A stretch of DNA of 64,000 nucleotides from Sediminivirga luteola (GTDB lineage: Bacteria; Actinomycetota; Actinomycetes; Actinomycetales; Brevibacteriaceae): NCBI RefSeq assembly GCF_014639315.1, contig NZ_BMFY01000004.1, forward strand, positions 62,001-126,000, given 5' to 3'. Below the pieces are notes generated by a model. The model did no database searches and was not told the DNA's origin. It saw nothing but the letters and a program-made list of their open reading frames with translations. Made by a program: the position numbers and the translations under genes. This document shows, piece by piece, positions 6,522-42,401 of this stretch. Position 1 is the stretch's first letter. Every line of letters starts with the position of its first letter.

Positions 6522-6779
6522 ATGAGGACGATGAGCTACACGGAATCGCGCGCCCGGTACGCAGAGGTGCTGGATTCCGTGACGGAGAACCGCGAAGAAG
6601 TAGTGATCACCCGGGCGGGACATGAGCCAGTCGTCATCATGTCCCTGGACGATTACGAGTCTCTGCGCGAAACCGCGTATCTGATGCGCTCGCCCGCGAA
6701 CGCACGCCGCTTGCTCGACGCTATGGAGCGGCTCGAAAACGGTGCGGGTGAGGAACACGAGTTGCTCGACGCCGACTGA
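6522..6779 (+). CDS. yefM: YefM antitoxin (Phd/YefM family)
   Basis: The 85-residue antitoxin starts at an ATG after a strong AAGGAGG site. The Phd/YefM fold is clear: SYTESRARYAEVLDSV, ITRAGHEPVVIMSLDDYESL, then the toxin-binding C-terminus beginning LMRSPANARRLLDAMERLE. It binds and neutralises YoeB and with it represses the operon through the TGTACA-type operator. The toxin gene starts two bases after its stop codon, so the pair is translationally coupled. A close paralogue at 9261 has lost its toxin. Confidence 0.95.
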   Translation: MRTMSYTESRARYAEVLDSVTENREEVVITRAGHEPVVIMSLDDYESLRETAYLMRSPANARRLLDAMERLENGAGEEHELLDAD

Positions 6780-6780
6780 T

Positions 6781-7041
6781 ATGCGGCTCGTGTGGGACAA
6801 GAATGCCTGGGACGATTATCTGTGGTGGCAGACACAAGATCGTAAGGTACTCCGGCGCATCAACACGCTGATCGCGGACATCATGCGCAATGGCAACAGG
6901 GGCATCGGCAAGCCCGAGCCACTCAAGCACGACTTCGCCGGGTACTGGTCTCGGCGCATCACCGATGAGCACCGGCTGGTCTACAAGGCGGCCGCCGGAG
7001 AGGTGCGCATCGCCGCCTGCCGTTACCACTACGGCCGCTGA
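6781..7041 (+). CDS. yoeB: YoeB toxin (RelE superfamily mRNA interferase)
   Basis: The 86-residue toxin is a ribosome-dependent mRNA endonuclease. It starts MRLVWDKNAWDDYLWW, typical of YoeB, and keeps every catalytic residue at canonical numbering: Glu46, Arg65, His83 and Tyr84 in the terminal RYHYGR. It is therefore expected to be active and dependent on YefM upstream for control. No frameshift or truncation is seen. Confidence 0.95.
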   Translation: MRLVWDKNAWDDYLWWQTQDRKVLRRINTLIADIMRNGNRGIGKPEPLKHDFAGYWSRRITDEHRLVYKAAAGEVRIAACRYHYGR

Positions 7042-7106
7042 ACGCTGTTGGCAGGCCTCTTCGAGATGCCCGGCACGCTTGCGGAAGCCTCGCGGGAGGC
7101 TTGAAC

Positions 7107-7175
7107 TCAGCAGTCGGGGACATCGGGGGTCTGCACCGGAAGCCGGCACCGGACGGTGAGTTCTCCGGCGACGAA
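7107..7175 (-). pseudogene. Remnant of the 3' end of nagZ
   Basis: Directly downstream of yoeB the minus strand encodes VAGELTVRCRLPVQTPDVPDC followed by a stop. This closely matches the C-terminus of the intact nagZ at 9536-11194 (VAGELTARGRLPAQIPGADD, then APDC and a stop). The flanking DNA TCGCGGGAGGCTTGA is shared too. Nothing recognisable as nagZ lies further upstream of this fragment, so it is a leftover of a duplication. Confidence 0.85.
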
Positions 7176-7301
7176 GGGCGAAGGCAAGGCCGCACACGAC
7201 GCTACCGCAGACACATCAGGGGCCGACCTCGTCAACGCACCTGGTCCCCGGCCGGGGAACTCCCGCCGGGGACCAGGTGGATCGACGTTCACGTCTCGTC
7301 G
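7176..7301. other. Intergenic, no gene seen
   Basis: The stretch between the nagZ remnant and the membrane-protein stop shows no supportable gene. It contains a repeated GGGGACCAGGTG-like motif in opposite orientations (around 7240 and 7265) that could fold into a hairpin and serve as a terminator. Confidence 0.3.
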
Positions 7302-7775
7302 CTAACGACGCGCAGGCCGAGGTCCGCTGTACACGCGGCTCGCGACCAGGAGAATCAAGGGCGCGAGCGGAACTGCGATCAGGTGTCCAGGCACGAGGAG
7401 CAACAAGACCACGTAGCTCAGCGGGATCACGGGTGAAAAGACCGCGAAGACCACGGGGTAGAGACAGAGCCACAACGTCACCCCAACGGCCTGGCGCGCG
7501 AAGGGACGGCGCGCGAACGGCCATAGCCTACGCGCGAGCGCGTCAATCAGCGGAGCACCCAGTGCGGCGACGACTGAAGTCAGAAGGACGAACGGGACAT
7601 CGCCTTCGGCGAAGAACGGTCGCGTCGTGTGGAAGAGCCTGGCTATCACTGCCCCCGCCATCGCGACCACACCCGAGACGATGAGAATCATCCACCACGG
7701 GAGCGGGTCAGCCGACGCCGGCTTGTCGCCCACAGGGCTGCGATCAGTTTCCGGCAGTTCCGCGAAGCCACTCAT
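7302..7775 (-). CDS. Small integral membrane protein, unknown function
   Basis: The 157-residue protein has about four hydrophobic segments (WWMILIVSGVVAMAGAVIA, VPFVLLTSVVAALGAPLI, AVGVTLWLCLYPVVFAVF, VVLLLLVPGHLIAVPLAPLI). The ATG at 7775 lies inside the end of the upstream secreted-protein gene, which stops at 7744, so the two overlap by 32 bases in different frames and are probably coupled. An in-frame GTG at 7781 is an alternative start. No family is recognised. Its tight link to the secreted protein suggests a joint role, such as an immunity or anchoring partner, but that is inference. Confidence 0.65.
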   Translation of the reverse strand: MSGFAELPETDRSPVGDKPASADPLPWWMILIVSGVVAMAGAVIARLFHTTRPFFAEGDVPFVLLTSVVAALGAPLIDALARRLWPFARRPFARQAVGVTLWLCLYPVVFAVFSPVIPLSYVVLLLLVPGHLIAVPLAPLILLVASRVYSGPRPARR

Positions 7776-9075
7776 ACCCACATGACCCTAGCAAGCATTG
7801 GTAAGAATCGAGTTCAGACTGGCCGACCCACTGCCACTCACCGCTCAGACCCGTAGCTTGAACTCGACCAGCCGCAACTTCATGGTTAGGAACCTGGTAA
7901 TGCTGCGAGTTCACTTCCACCATACCGTTCGAATAGAGTCGAAACGTTGCATAGTAAGTAATGGCGCCCGCAACGCAGAACGGGTTTCCAACAATATGCT
8001 CCACCTGGACCTGAGCAAAACTTCCACCGATCTGAACAGAGTGAGGATCAATTCCATCCAAGGGCGCGGTCCGACGGTCGACGGGGCGGCCTTCCTCTAG
8101 AGCGACGGTCTCACCCATTCCTCTCATAACATCCACCCGCTGGCTATCCCAATGCGCCTGGATGTGAACTGCCGTTCGGAAGCTATCCTCCCGGACAGGA
8201 TCCCCGTCAGGAAGCTGGAATCCACGGTCATCGCCCCCATGAATACCATAACCTTCACACCCGAGGCTCTGAATTCCATTAAGGACAATCTGAGCACTTG
8301 GAGCAAAAGTCCGATACGAGCTGGCTGTGCCAGGCTGTTCATTAGCAGCATACGACTGCACCTCCTCAGCAGAGCCTCCCGTAGTTGAGGGAACAGAGAG
8401 CAGCCGGACGGAATCGGCCTCGGCCTCAGAAGTAAATACCTGGTATGCCACTTCTGCATCCGCCATACCATGATCGTCATAGAATGACGTTCCCTCGACC
8501 CGCTCCTTAGCACGCCCTTGACGGGCGACCTCGCGCGCCGCGTCGTCATCCCGCCACACAAGAAGCGCCGAGCCCTCCGCGATGGCGACCCGCGCAAACG
8601 TAGGCTCGAGATCCTCAGTCACGGGATAGTCAACTGCCTCAAAACTGAGAGTGTCCTGCGCCAGCCCCTCGCCATCCCAGACAGGCCGATCACCCGGCTC
8701 TTGCCCATTTAGCTCCCGTGCCGCTCCAGCACGGCTTGACACCGGCGCCAAAATTCCTTGAGCTGTCACCTCTCGACCGCCAGAGTCCACGCCGCGATAA
8801 TTCACCACCCCGTCTCCCTCTTCAAGCCGTTGAAGAGAAACCTCCTCGCCACTCGGATACTCTACAATGATATCTTCATTGGCAAAGTAAGCTTCAAATT
8901 CACCATCAGTGTTAGCAGAAGCCGGGAAGGCAGAGATAAGAAATAGAACACATGAAGCGGAAATTGCGCATGTCGCGCCTTTGTAAAACACTAAAATCGC
9001 ACCATTGACTCGGGGACTGGTCACTAAAACCGTCGGGGGAAGCAACGATTTCGAGCAAGCCCAGATGTTCATCAA
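7744..9075 (-). CDS. Secreted protein with a DUF3238-like C-terminal domain
   Basis: The 443-residue product has a signal peptide (hydrophobic core ISASCVLFLISAF, cleavage near PASA-N, residues 30-54). A GTG at 8991 would give a better-shaped signal peptide than the ATG at 9075. The C-terminal third (about 255-420) resembles DUF3238: HGGDDRGF, then AHWDSQRVDVMRGMGET, then HYQVPNHE, compared from memory with the family's EGDNR and FPAHE positions. The middle is Glu/Ala rich. Base composition is visibly lower in GC than the flanks, with poor third-position GC, a sign of transfer. It overlaps the membrane-protein gene. Confidence 0.6.
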   Translation of the reverse strand: MMNIWACSKSLLPPTVLVTSPRVNGAILVFYKGATCAISASCVLFLISAFPASANTDGEFEAYFANEDIIVEYPSGEEVSLQRLEEGDGVVNYRGVDSGGREVTAQGILAPVSSRAGAARELNGQEPGDRPVWDGEGLAQDTLSFEAVDYPVTEDLEPTFARVAIAEGSALLVWRDDDAAREVARQGRAKERVEGTSFYDDHGMADAEVAYQVFTSEAEADSVRLLSVPSTTGGSAEEVQSYAANEQPGTASSYRTFAPSAQIVLNGIQSLGCEGYGIHGGDDRGFQLPDGDPVREDSFRTAVHIQAHWDSQRVDVMRGMGETVALEEGRPVDRRTAPLDGIDPHSVQIGGSFAQVQVEHIVGNPFCVAGAITYYATFRLYSNGMVEVNSQHYQVPNHEVAAGRVQATGLSGEWQWVGQSELDSYQCLLGSCGYEWLRGTAGN

Positions 9076-9099
9076 TCGAGAGTCAAGGGTTTTACGTCA

Positions 9100-9200
9100 A
9101 CCGGGTGGGGCGGTGAAGTAGCAGAGCCAGGTGGTTCCGCAGAGCCACTCATACCCATATGAACCCAAGGTCAGGTTCCACAGAGGCCAAGAGTTTCTGC
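9100..9200 (-). pseudogene. Remnant of a second secreted-protein / membrane-protein junction
   Basis: On the minus strand one frame reads LTLGSYGYEWLCGTT, matching the end of the intact secreted protein (LLGSCGYEWLRGTAGN). The overlapping frame reads MSGSAEPP, matching the start of the intact membrane protein (MSGFAELP). So the overlap region of that gene pair exists twice, here without the rest of either gene. It lies immediately before the orphan yefM. Confidence 0.65.
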
Positions 9201-9260
9201 TATTGCCTGCGCTACGACCGGCTCCCGGCGACGAGCCCTGAGCACCCGCGCGCGCGAACG

Positions 9261-9533
9261 ATGAACGCAAACGCGAACCGAGCGTCGAGATCGCCGGAAT
9301 CGCGTGCCCGGTATGCCGAGGTGTTGAGTTCGGTGACGGAGAACCACGACGAAGTGGTGGTGACACGGGCAGGACAGAGGCCGGTCGTCATCGTGTCCCT
9401 GGACGAGTACGAGTCCCTGCGCGAGACCGTTCATCTGATGCGCTCGCCCGCAAACGCGCACCGTCTGCTCGATGCGATAGAACGACTCGAAGACAGCAGC
9501 GCCAGCAGGGAGCACACTTCGCGGGAGGCTTGA
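9261..9533 (+). CDS. Orphan YefM antitoxin with rebuilt C-terminus
   Basis: The 90-residue protein is a close paralogue of YefM at 6522: ESRARYAEVLSSVTENHDE, VVVTRAGQRPVVIVSLDEYE and HLMRSPANAHRLLDAIERLE are nearly the same. It has no toxin downstream. Its last residues (HTSREA) and stop are read from the same DNA (TCGCGGGAGGCTTGA) that follows yoeB in the first copy, so yoeB appears to have been deleted and the reading frame closed by former spacer. No TGTACA operator precedes it, and no good ribosome binding site is visible. It could still neutralise YoeB in trans. Confidence 0.85.
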   Translation: MNANANRASRSPESRARYAEVLSSVTENHDEVVVTRAGQRPVVIVSLDEYESLRETVHLMRSPANAHRLLDAIERLEDSSASREHTSREA

Positions 9534-9535
9534 GC

Positions 9536-11194
9536 TCAGCAGTCCGGGGCGTCGTCGGCACCGGGGATCTGAGCCGGAAGCCGGCCCCGGGCGGTGAGTT
9601 CTCCGGCGACATAGGCGGCGACCGCGTCGAGCGCCTCGGGTCCGTCGTGATAGACGGCGAGCTTGGCCGCGGCGTCACTCTGCTCGAGGATCCACGGGGC
9701 TCCCAGCGACACCGCGAACGCCGCATCGCCCGCGCCGATGCTGCCCCTCCCCAGGACGACGGCCTCCGCTGCGGTATCCGTGACCTGCACCCCGCGCTCG
9801 CCCAGCGCCCCGGCCAGCCACTCCCGTACACCCGCATCGGCGCCCTGGAGCCGGACCTCCTCAGGCGGTTCTTCCAGCCGGCACTGCCCGGCGACGACGG
9901 TGAGGGACCGCTCGGCCAGTAGCGTCCGCAGCTCCCCGGGCGAAGCCTCCGCAAGGCCCGGATCGCCGCCCAGCGCGGGCAACTCCGCAATCGAATCGGC
10001 CTCCCCGGCACGAGCGGTCCACAGCTGCAGTGCCACCACGCGTTCAGCGGCCGTCTGCAGCCGGTCCGCGTCCAGGTCTCCGCTTTCCAGGGCCGACAGC
10101 ACGGCCCGGTGCGCCGCCACCGGGTCCGGCGGCATGAGCGCCAGATCCGCGCCCGCGTTCAGAGCCCGCACCGTCTCCTGGCCCGCCTCGGGAGCAGCCT
10201 GCCGGGCAGCGGCCATGTCCAGCGCGTCCGTGACGAGCACCCCGTCGTAGCCAAACTCCTCCCGCAGCAGCCGGTAGGCGCGCGGCGCCATCGACGCCGG
10301 CACGCCGTCAGTCTCCGCGAAGGCGATGTGGCCCACCATGACGCTGGCGACCCCCGCTTCGATAGCGGCCGCGAACGGAGGGAACTCACGCTCGCGAAGT
10401 TCCTCCATCCCGGCGCCGAGCTCACCGGCCTCATGATGCGTGTCCACCGTGAGCGCACCGTGCCCGGGGAAATGCTTGGCGCTGGCGGCCAGCCCCGCGC
10501 CCTGCTGCCCGCGCACCGCGGCGGCTGCGATCCGTGCCGCCAGCCCGGGATCGTCCGAGGCGGCCCGCACGCCGATGGTGATGTCCCGCGCGCCGATGGT
10601 GACATCGGCGGTCGGCGCGAAGTTCATGGTGAAGCCGAGACCCCTCAGCTCCGCGGCCTGCGCGTGGATGCTGGCGGCCGTCAGCGCCTCGTCGCCCGCG
10701 GCGCCGTGCGCCATCAGCGGCGGCATCGTCGCCGCCGCGCCGCCGAGGCGTTCGACCGGGCCGCCTTCCTGGTCGACGCTGATGAGCACCGGGGCCTCCC
10801 TGTCCTCGCCGGCGGCGGCGAGGCCGGCGGTGACGGCGCGGACGTCATCGGCGTCCGGGCTGCCCGGCAGCGCCGCGGACATCACGATCGCCCCGGCGAG
10901 ATGGTGGGAACGGATCAGCTCGGCGACATAGCCGGAGTCCGCTCCGGCGGTGGCGACGATGACGCTGCCCGCCAGTTCCTCATCGTCCATCCCGGCGACG
11001 ATCTCCTGGGCTCGTTCCCGGTCCTCTCCGCTCGGCCCCGGTGGCAGCTCGGCCTCCTGCACGTCGCTGTCCTCGCGCCCGGCGGCGTCGCCGGGCGGGG
11101 AGGGCTGGGCGGCCCGCTGTCCCGGGGGCATCGAGCCGCCCAGCAGAACGGCCAGGACGAGCGCGCCGAGCAGGACCAGCAGGCGGGAACGCAT
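9536..11194 (-). CDS. nagZ: Beta-N-acetylhexosaminidase, glycoside hydrolase family 3
   Basis: The 552-residue protein begins with a signal peptide or anchor (LLVLLGALVLAVLLGG) and so probably acts outside the membrane, releasing GlcNAc from muropeptides or glycans. The GH3 NagZ signature is intact: VDQEGGPVERL (140-150), KHFPGHG (240-246), the DTHH loop (251-254) that supplies the NagZ general acid His, and VTDALDM with nucleophile Asp323. The C-terminal part (about 420-552) is an extra GH3_C-like domain. TACGAT lies six bases before the ATG, so the mRNA may be leaderless. It converges on the orphan yefM, two bases apart. Confidence 0.9.
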   Translation of the reverse strand: MRSRLLVLLGALVLAVLLGGSMPPGQRAAQPSPPGDAAGREDSDVQEAELPPGPSGEDRERAQEIVAGMDDEELAGSVIVATAGADSGYVAELIRSHHLAGAIVMSAALPGSPDADDVRAVTAGLAAAGEDREAPVLISVDQEGGPVERLGGAAATMPPLMAHGAAGDEALTAASIHAQAAELRGLGFTMNFAPTADVTIGARDITIGVRAASDDPGLAARIAAAAVRGQQGAGLAASAKHFPGHGALTVDTHHEAGELGAGMEELREREFPPFAAAIEAGVASVMVGHIAFAETDGVPASMAPRAYRLLREEFGYDGVLVTDALDMAAARQAAPEAGQETVRALNAGADLALMPPDPVAAHRAVLSALESGDLDADRLQTAAERVVALQLWTARAGEADSIAELPALGGDPGLAEASPGELRTLLAERSLTVVAGQCRLEEPPEEVRLQGADAGVREWLAGALGERGVQVTDTAAEAVVLGRGSIGAGDAAFAVSLGAPWILEQSDAAAKLAVYHDGPEALDAVAAYVAGELTARGRLPAQIPGADDAPDC

Positions 11195-41283: not shown

Positions 41284-41346
41284 CTCCTCAGGCCGCATTT
41301 TGGGGCGATCGCACCTACACGACCATAGAGAGAATGTGAGATCAAT

Positions 41347-42144
41347 ATGAAGAGATTCGCACTGGCCGCTGCGGGGTGCTCACTCGCACTCCTCGGCGCC
41401 ACTCCAGCTCAAGCCGCGGCTCCGGTCGGGGAATCCATCGACTACTCCATAAGCGTAGACGAGGTCGAATCGTTCCTTCTCGAACAGGGCGTCGAGCAGG
41501 ACGTCGTGGATGACCTTGTCGAATCCGTCGAGGACGGCGACCCCATTGGAAGCCTCGCTGGGCTCGATCCTATCGATGAGACTACTACACGTAAAAACGA
41601 TCTCGTCATCACCACGGAAACCTTCGAGGATGGCTCGGTTGAAGTCACGACCTTAGAGCAACCAATCCTCGAAGAAAACGACGATTCAGCCGAGCCCCCT
41701 GCACCTTCAGTCGCAAATAAACACGACCACTGGGCAGTCGGTGCGAGCTTTTCTCCGGCTAACCACCCTGGCGCGTTCGAAGCAAGTACAGTCGGCAGCA
41801 TCAAGGATTGCAAGGTCTCCAGCGGCAGTGGGTTCAAGTCCTACAAAAACTGTGTAGTTCAGCGGAACTCCGCCACTGCAAACATATCATTCCGCGCCTC
41901 TTACACAATAGTAAACAAGGGCAATGACTACATCTCCACGATCGGGCAGGCAGGGCACCGCTGCTTCGCCGCATCTTGCAGCAACGTGAAATCCCGCATC
42001 ATCAAGAAGAACGAGTCGAGCACCGGGAAGGCAGTCGCGCGCGCGTCGATGGATGTTACCCTGGCGGGTGGCATCGCATCCAGGAGCTTCTGGGTACAGC
42101 TGGAAGTAGGCGGCAACAAGGCCGTCGCGAGGAATGGTGGGTGA
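41347..42144 (+). CDS. Secreted protein of unknown function with four cysteines
   Basis: The 265-residue protein has a classic signal peptide (MKRFALAAAGCSLALLGATP, AQAAA). A strongly acidic propeptide-like part covers residues 25-120 (DEVESFLLEQGVEQDVVDDL...). A basic C-terminal domain (125-265) has Cys155, Cys169, Cys206 and Cys211, suitable for two disulfides, and several Lys/Arg. GC content is visibly below the neighbours. Its stop overlaps the start of a small membrane protein, as in bacteriocin/immunity pairs, but no family is recognised. Confidence 0.8.
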   Translation: MKRFALAAAGCSLALLGATPAQAAAPVGESIDYSISVDEVESFLLEQGVEQDVVDDLVESVEDGDPIGSLAGLDPIDETTTRKNDLVITTETFEDGSVEVTTLEQPILEENDDSAEPPAPSVANKHDHWAVGASFSPANHPGAFEASTVGSIKDCKVSSGSGFKSYKNCVVQRNSATANISFRASYTIVNKGNDYISTIGQAGHRCFAASCSNVKSRIIKKNESSTGKAVARASMDVTLAGGIASRSFWVQLEVGGNKAVARNGG

Positions 42145-42401
42145 CTGTGCGTAAAGTTCACGCCAGCGAAATATCCGACAGCGACCCGGGCTTCCCTCCA
42201 ATTGCGGACATCGCCTTTTGGGGGATGGGCTTTATCGCAATTGTTTTGATGATTGCGATGATTGCCGTTGTTGTAAAGTCAGGGGCTTCGCCGCTTGAAA
42301 AGATTCTACTAACGGCACTCGTCCTCCTCGCTCCTGTTTTGGGAAGTATCATTGCCGCTGCTATACTGATATCGCGAAGGGGATCGAGAACGCTTACCTA
42401 A
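42141..42401 (+). CDS. Small membrane protein, putative immunity partner
   Basis: The GTG at 42141 overlaps the preceding stop (GTGA). A second GTG two codons later is possible. The 86-residue product has two helices (IAFWGMGFIAIVLMIAMIAV and ILLTALVLLAPVLGSIIAAA) and a basic end (SRRGSRTLT). The second helix recalls the PLDc_N two-helix module found in some immunity proteins. The coupling to a secreted protein suggests protection of the producer, which is inference. Lower GC than the flanks. Confidence 0.7.
   Translation: MTVRKVHASEISDSDPGFPPIADIAFWGMGFIAIVLMIAMIAVVVKSGASPLEKILLTALVLLAPVLGSIIAAAILISRRGSRTLT

Follow-up and report, generated by a model that had tools for sequence, protein, structure and literature searches.

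A secreted protein with a DUF3238-like domain and its overlapping membrane partner: a possible toxin-immunity pair in Sediminivirga luteola

The locus described here lies in a 64,000-nt stretch of Sediminivirga luteola DNA (contig NZ_BMFY01000004.1, positions 62,001-126,000, forward strand). This whole stretch is called the window, and all coordinates are positions in it. Two overlapping genes on the minus strand, one encoding a predicted secreted protein and the other a predicted membrane protein, form the module under study, with the following features.

7744-8991, minus strand: secreted-protein gene, 415 aa from GTG 8991, with the frame open to TTG 9075 (443 aa)
8914-8991, minus strand: predicted Sec signal peptide whose last residues, ...FPASA, precede NTDG
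8410-8601, minus strand: degenerate fibronectin-III-like (Fn3-like) segment before the C-terminal domain, from a ten-segment alignment (A8)
7747-8349, minus strand: C-terminal DUF3238-like domain, 201 aa
7302-7775, minus strand: predicted four-helix membrane protein of 157 aa (from ATG 7775) or 159 aa (from GTG 7781)
7744-7775, minus strand: overlap of the two genes, 32 bases when ATG 7775 is taken as the start of the membrane gene
7230-7287, minus strand: strong hairpin between the end of the membrane gene, which it closely follows, and the convergent YoeB gene (arms 7230-7255 and 7262-7287)

GTG 8991 appears to be the likeliest start of the secreted-protein gene because the predicted signal peptide then begins there. 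The 443-aa frame contains a single hydrophobic segment (residues 34-52), and the cleavage site was placed by inspection. The secreted protein thus carries the predicted export signal that is expected in polymorphic toxin-immunity systems, namely a hydrophobic N-terminal segment followed by a cleavage-like site. The 32-base overlap of the original prediction was recovered with ATG 7775 as the start of the membrane gene, and extends to 38 bases if GTG 7781 is used. The region around the hairpin (7215-7310) folds at -59.3 kcal/mol (z -5.3). The pair had also been described as low in GC. This applies to the secreted-protein gene (56.0%, against 69.0% for the window) but not to the membrane gene (65.0%), suggesting that the low GC is mainly a property of the former, and the lowest-GC stretch of the window lies near 41297 rather than at the pair. 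That stretch harbors a predicted secreted protein of 265 aa (41347-42144, plus strand) followed by an ORF with two membrane segments ending at 42401 (plus strand), which may represent another secreted/membrane pair belonging to a different family.

Both sides of the module bear partial duplications.

6522-6779 and 6781-7041, plus strand: complete YefM-YoeB toxin-antitoxin pair, flanking and outside the module
7090-7181, no strand assigned: repeat of the 3' terminus of the adjacent nagZ-like GH3 gene, whose native copy lies at 9519-9621
9134-9169, minus strand: junction relic, combining the end of a second secreted-gene copy with the start region of another membrane gene
9295-9533, plus strand (ORF 9159-9533): second YefM-like antitoxin without a toxin gene, also flanking, with the repeat part at 9295-9494

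The recurrence of the junction sequence at about 9100-9200, noticed in the original prediction, was confirmed and narrowed to 9134-9169. Comparison of 7757-7791 with 9134-9169 gave a local score of 45, whereas the best score among 300 simple shuffles of the latter region was 33. Allowing up to three mismatches, the 28-base core of the junction occurs at only these two places in the 3.86-Mb assembly, and no match to it was found in 100 shuffles of the window. Read in the frame of the secreted protein, the relic still resembles by inspection the end of such a protein, suggesting that the module once had a tandem copy, most of which would since have disappeared. The YefM genes share an 82% identical stretch (6541-6740 and 9295-9494), and the N-terminus of the second YefM-like copy departs from the complete copy before 9295. 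Two toxin-antitoxin copies had been reported to flank the module; one is a full YefM-YoeB pair, but the other retains the antitoxin only. The duplicated 3' end of the nagZ-like gene had been missed at that stage. The flanks of 29 other nagZ loci in the family, covering up to 1.5 kb (less at contig ends, e.g. L054), contained neither YefM/YoeB nor the module. The duplicated flanks look like traces of old recombination rather than the boundary of an element.

The C-terminal region had been predicted to resemble DUF3238, with an HMM search proposed as a check. The window protein itself gave no match at all to the Pfam model PF11579, whose gathering score is 21.1 bits, but its relatives did: nine of 14 aligned domains matched PF11579 at E ≤ 0.1 (best 2.1e-9). 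When scanned whole, the relatives L006 (21.8 bits), L088 (24.5 bits) and L090 (34 bits) passed the cut-off, L007, L008, L009, L082 and L084 scored below it, and L003, L004, L086 and L089 had no match. A profile of nine domains retrieved a single structure from the Protein Data Bank, 3C5P (E 4e-13), which we take to be a structure of PF11579 (DUF3238). The AlphaFold model of the domain (pLDDT 82.9, pTM 0.82) matched 3C5P in Foldseek (E 1.2e-10) and in VIA (Z 20.1, rmsd 2.7 Å over 180 aligned residues), with the next entry at Z 6.5; as modelled, the domain has the same fold as 3C5P. The relationship of the domain to DUF3238 is therefore supported by its relatives, by the profile and by the predicted fold. 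The 3C5P entry, released in 2008, is the 197-residue chain of BAS0735, annotated simply as a protein of unknown function. BAS0735 and the window-type domains have G[DN]xR-, NP- and PxxE-type positions in common, whereas the window protein differs from BAS0735 in being predicted to be secreted and in having a long N-terminal region, an Fn3-like segment and a membrane partner. Matches of the domain to Taspase, LacZ domain 5 and galactose mutarotase folds (Z ≤ 6.5) were left uninterpreted. Against a library of viral structures, the domain model gave nothing at E ≤ 0.001.

Outside this domain the secreted protein is less readily classified. In Pfam, NCBIfam and PADLOC it gave only a 12-bit ATP-synthase match, below the cut-off, and its full-length AlphaFold model (mean pLDDT 46.5) was too poor and was discarded. 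The Fn3-like segment was recognized through a profile of ten such segments including that of the window, which matched Fn3 structures (e.g. 3mpc, E 3.1e-5) and found its best matches in DUF3472-domain proteins (E 7.8e-10). The window protein alone had no fn3 match in Pfam; in two relatives, the Pfam fn3 model scored above its cut-off at other positions (L088, residues 36-93; L090, residues 748-814). The relatives share a conserved C-terminal domain but vary in their N-terminal part, and the domain is found behind differing N-terminal parts (in L090 and L099).

Relatives of the secreted protein are patchily distributed. Including the genome of S. luteola itself, they were found in seven of 60 genomes of the family, 12 of 396 of the order, 11 of 394 of the class and four of 396 of the phylum; these genome sets overlap, and the four at phylum level, retrieved with alignment A3, had all been found before. 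The PF11579 model retrieved none of the 396 phylum genomes and none of 14 control genomes, a search that had no positive control. A scan of genome contigs with the single window protein found no relatives, and the same scan with alignment A1 found eight loci. No relatives were detected in viral contigs with alignment A1, nor in phage records with the L082 protein. In plasmid records the window protein retrieved a single match (E 8e-4), and the L016 and L082 proteins retrieved overlapping sets of 16 and 17 records. These plasmids come from Bacillus, Priestia, Metabacillus, Exiguobacterium, Arthrobacter, Nostoc and a Bacillaceae; they include mobilisable ones of 6.4-8.4 kb as well as one 2.9-kb record typed as non-mobilizable. 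In passages of papers on such Bacillus plasmids, rap/phr and mobilisation genes are discussed, and no naming of the DUF3238 gene was noticed there (PMC5243856, PMC6334282, PMC3828314). The module had been proposed to be mobile. The patchy distribution and the plasmid relatives agree with this proposal, but the flanks are unlike an element boundary, and a Pfam scan of nine proteins from the 3.7-11.3 kb stretch of the window revealed no integrase or transposase, so that a mobile element with its own integrase or transposase and defined ends is not seen in that stretch.

To assess whether the membrane gene accompanies the secreted-protein gene elsewhere, 35 distinct loci from Actinomycetota, Bacillota and Nostoc were compiled. 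Loci representing the same place (L001, L002, L010-L015, L017-L023, L030, L092-L095 and L104), near-identical plasmid genes (L083 and L085) and the plasmid matches H4, H6, H7 and H9-H11 were left out. A partner was scored when a same-strand ORF encoding 70-230 aa, with three or more hydrophobic segments, started between -150 and +450 bases from the end of the secreted-protein gene; segments were counted by a crude hydropathy threshold, and the loci are related rather than independent. By this test 22 of the 35 loci have a downstream partner. Applied to controls, it was positive for none of 29 nagZ genes, whose ends were taken from the match rather than from the stop codon, and for one of at most 37 window genes, a few at the edges having been skipped. 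At five Bacillota plasmid loci (L082, L084, L105, L106 and L107) a divergent partner lies upstream instead, as found by a search made after the fact and without a matched control. Counting both arrangements, a small gene of immunity type with at least three predicted membrane segments adjoins the secreted-protein gene at 27 of the 35 loci, and the pair first noticed in the window is thus found to recur in other genomes. The pairing holds at 16 of 17 loci of the order-level set (including an Actinomycetales MAG and an Arthrobacter plasmid), eight of nine Bacillota plasmid loci and three of eight further class loci, and is absent from the one Nostoc locus. This recurrence in different contexts and in two phyla, above the downstream controls, argues against the two genes being hypothetical passengers of no joint function in a recombination-prone spot beside a toxin-antitoxin system. 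Such an origin would fit the atypical GC, the duplicated flanks and the patchy distribution, and we regard it as highly improbable.

Eight loci lack a partner (L028, L087, L091, L096, L097, L099, L101 and L102). The neighbour of L028 scores two segments, and only a 62-aa ORF with two segments is present at the Metabacillus locus L087. Proteins L096, L099 and L102 have the long N-terminal region, and no ORF with at least three segments was found within 450 bases downstream or 900 bases on either side of their genes. The remaining three, L091, L097 and L101, are short DUF3238-like proteins of ~240-255 aa without the long N-terminal region. L097 and L101 share their genomic context, a cytochrome-biogenesis-like membrane gene and an ABC-transporter-like gene (named by inspection), and are possibly a non-toxic form of the domain.

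The partners keep their topology but are far more diverse in sequence than the DUF3238-like domain they accompany. The membrane protein of the window belongs to no Pfam family and matches neither DUF443 nor UPF0715 (PF17094). In 60 genomes of the family, the search for its homologues returned only itself, all other matches being at E 0.01 or worse and taken as noise. Weak matches to Cas8g/Csx17 (11.6 bits) were taken as chance. The membrane neighbours on the Bacillus plasmids L082 and L084 belong to UPF0715, and that of L105 is annotated as such. Three profile comparisons between partner groups found no relation. Across 25 loci, the domains are similar at E < 0.01 in 249 of 300 pairs, and the partners are similar in just eight of those 249. 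For one close pair of loci the partner had a dN/dS ratio of 0.59 and the secreted protein one of 0.18; for a second pair the ratio was 0.22 for the partner against 0.05 for the C-terminal domain. These comparisons indicate that the partners diverge much faster than the domain, although in the second pair the value of the partner is close to the 0.20 obtained for the N-terminal half of its secreted protein, which speaks against especially fast partner evolution.

Partners are also found in the absence of an intact secreted-protein gene. At L005, L029 and L105 the partner frame is open beside an interrupted or truncated secreted-protein gene; these damaged genes could be sequencing or assembly faults, and L005 lies on a contig of 3.97 kb. 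A search of 60 genomes with the A6 partner type revealed an orphan partner (G020, C12:248406-248801), with no DUF3238 domain in the 11.5 kb around it. The occurrence of immunity genes without their toxin gene, a further mark of toxin-immunity systems, is thus represented here by this orphan and by the three loci with damaged secreted-protein genes. The UPF0715 model also finds matches in B. subtilis, whereas the DUF3238 model found none in the 14 control genomes, a weak contrast given that the latter search had no positive control.

These observations bear on what the membrane partner does. The tight pairing and the gene overlap would suit any obligate partner, including an export, anchoring or maturation factor for a secreted protein that works as a non-antibacterial surface enzyme or binding protein. 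Secreted enzymes often carry Fn3 segments, and the presence of the domain in the short partnerless proteins L091, L097 and L101 makes a basic non-toxic activity plausible. A dedicated factor, however, should be conserved together with its client, which is not the pattern seen among the domain-similar pairs, and it would hardly be expected to stay intact beside damaged secreted-protein genes or to occur alone. We therefore consider this explanation unlikely. Since sensing systems likewise combine a secreted protein with a small polytopic membrane protein, a signalling or scavenging pair may be envisaged, in which the partner senses a lineage-specific surface or competition protein or transports its product. 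Yet no regulator or transporter family, nor any family other than UPF0715 in Bacillus, exceeded the cut-off in the Pfam scan, which covered nine of the 27 partners, and no conserved third gene was obvious in the ORF lists looked at, making such a role rather improbable.

The sequence evidence suggests instead, with a probability of about 0.6, that the pair encodes a secreted antibacterial protein and its membrane-bound immunity protein, the four-helix product of 7302-7775 being the candidate for the latter. This reading is based on the rapid divergence of the polytopic partner and on finding it intact next to damaged secreted-protein genes and, in one case, by itself; it gives a putative function to a module whose role had been left open in the original prediction. 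The secreted protein would leave the cell by the Sec route, and its variable N-terminal part and Fn3-like segment, which precede the C-terminal domain in the observed architecture, would present that domain outside the cell. Because the partner is a membrane protein, the domain may act on sensitive neighbours either at the external side of the membrane or on the cell wall, and the four-helix protein, translated from the overlapping frame, would sit in the membrane of the producer and block the domain.

The genomic company of some relatives is consistent with a toxin-immunity function. On a Priestia megaterium plasmid, an LXG polymorphic-toxin gene (L106:4295-6160) is directly next to the DUF3238 gene, and on a Metabacillus plasmid another (L087:1-118) lies 2.8 kb from it. 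A 1175-aa protein of Priestia aryabhattai, annotated as DNRLRE, ends in the DUF3238 domain, and its gene is followed by a four-helix gene; DNRLRE is described in the accessible text of PMC12704120 as a domain of WapA toxins, and the Priestia protein thereby resembles the WapA/DNRLRE/Rhs type. The window protein differs from that type in its length (~415 aa) and has no Pfam match to Rhs or any other family at the cut-off. In classical polymorphic toxins, the C-terminus is the varying part. Here a constant N-terminus with exchanged C-termini is not found; the C-terminus is conserved and the N-terminus varies, and the window protein was therefore not filed among the classical polymorphic toxins. 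The short partnerless proteins L091, L097 and L101, together with BAS0735, suggest that the DUF3238-like domain may have another basic role.

Toxins with membrane immunity are a known kind. As far as the accessible parts of the respective papers describe them, two systems are close to the arrangement proposed here. TspA of Staphylococcus aureus is an exported toxin that acts on the membrane and is neutralised by membrane-bound TsaI (PMC7456083). It resembles the window pair, as interpreted above, in having a polytopic membrane protein encoded beside the toxin, but it follows a type VII route and is paired with a five-helix DUF443 immunity protein, in contrast to the Sec signal and the four-helix, Pfam-less partner of the window; moreover, toxicity has been demonstrated for TspA and is proposed for the window protein. 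In the EsxX/ExiCD system, an extracellular toxin is countered by membrane proteins, which are also encountered as orphans where the toxin gene is absent (PMC12744356), as is one partner here. EsxX differs in being an LXG type VII substrate and glycine-zipper toxin, with two membrane partners plus soluble ones. With regard to UPF0715 (PF17094), the Bacillus plasmid partners are members, whereas the window partner is not matched by the model.

Extended beyond S. luteola, the toxin-immunity reading would make DUF3238 an antibacterial effector fold across Actinomycetota and Bacillota: Sec-secreted, usually on an Fn3-like stalk, encoded on chromosomes and on plasmids of a few kb, and neutralised by fast-evolving four-helix immunity proteins. 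We hold this wider proposal to be an even bet. If true, a role would be found for a domain listed in Pfam as of 'unknown function', and likewise a function for UPF0715, whose model finds matches in B. subtilis, and Sec-secreted proteins would be seen to form such toxin-immunity pairs in two Gram-positive phyla. The main texts in a limited collection of papers contained no mention of DUF3238, UPF0715 or BAS0735, and as far as the searches reach, the DUF3238 domain would be new in such a role. In addition, at L026 a further predicted secreted protein of 227 aa is encoded downstream of the module (L026:2632-3315, plus strand), and loci of this kind may hold several secreted proteins.
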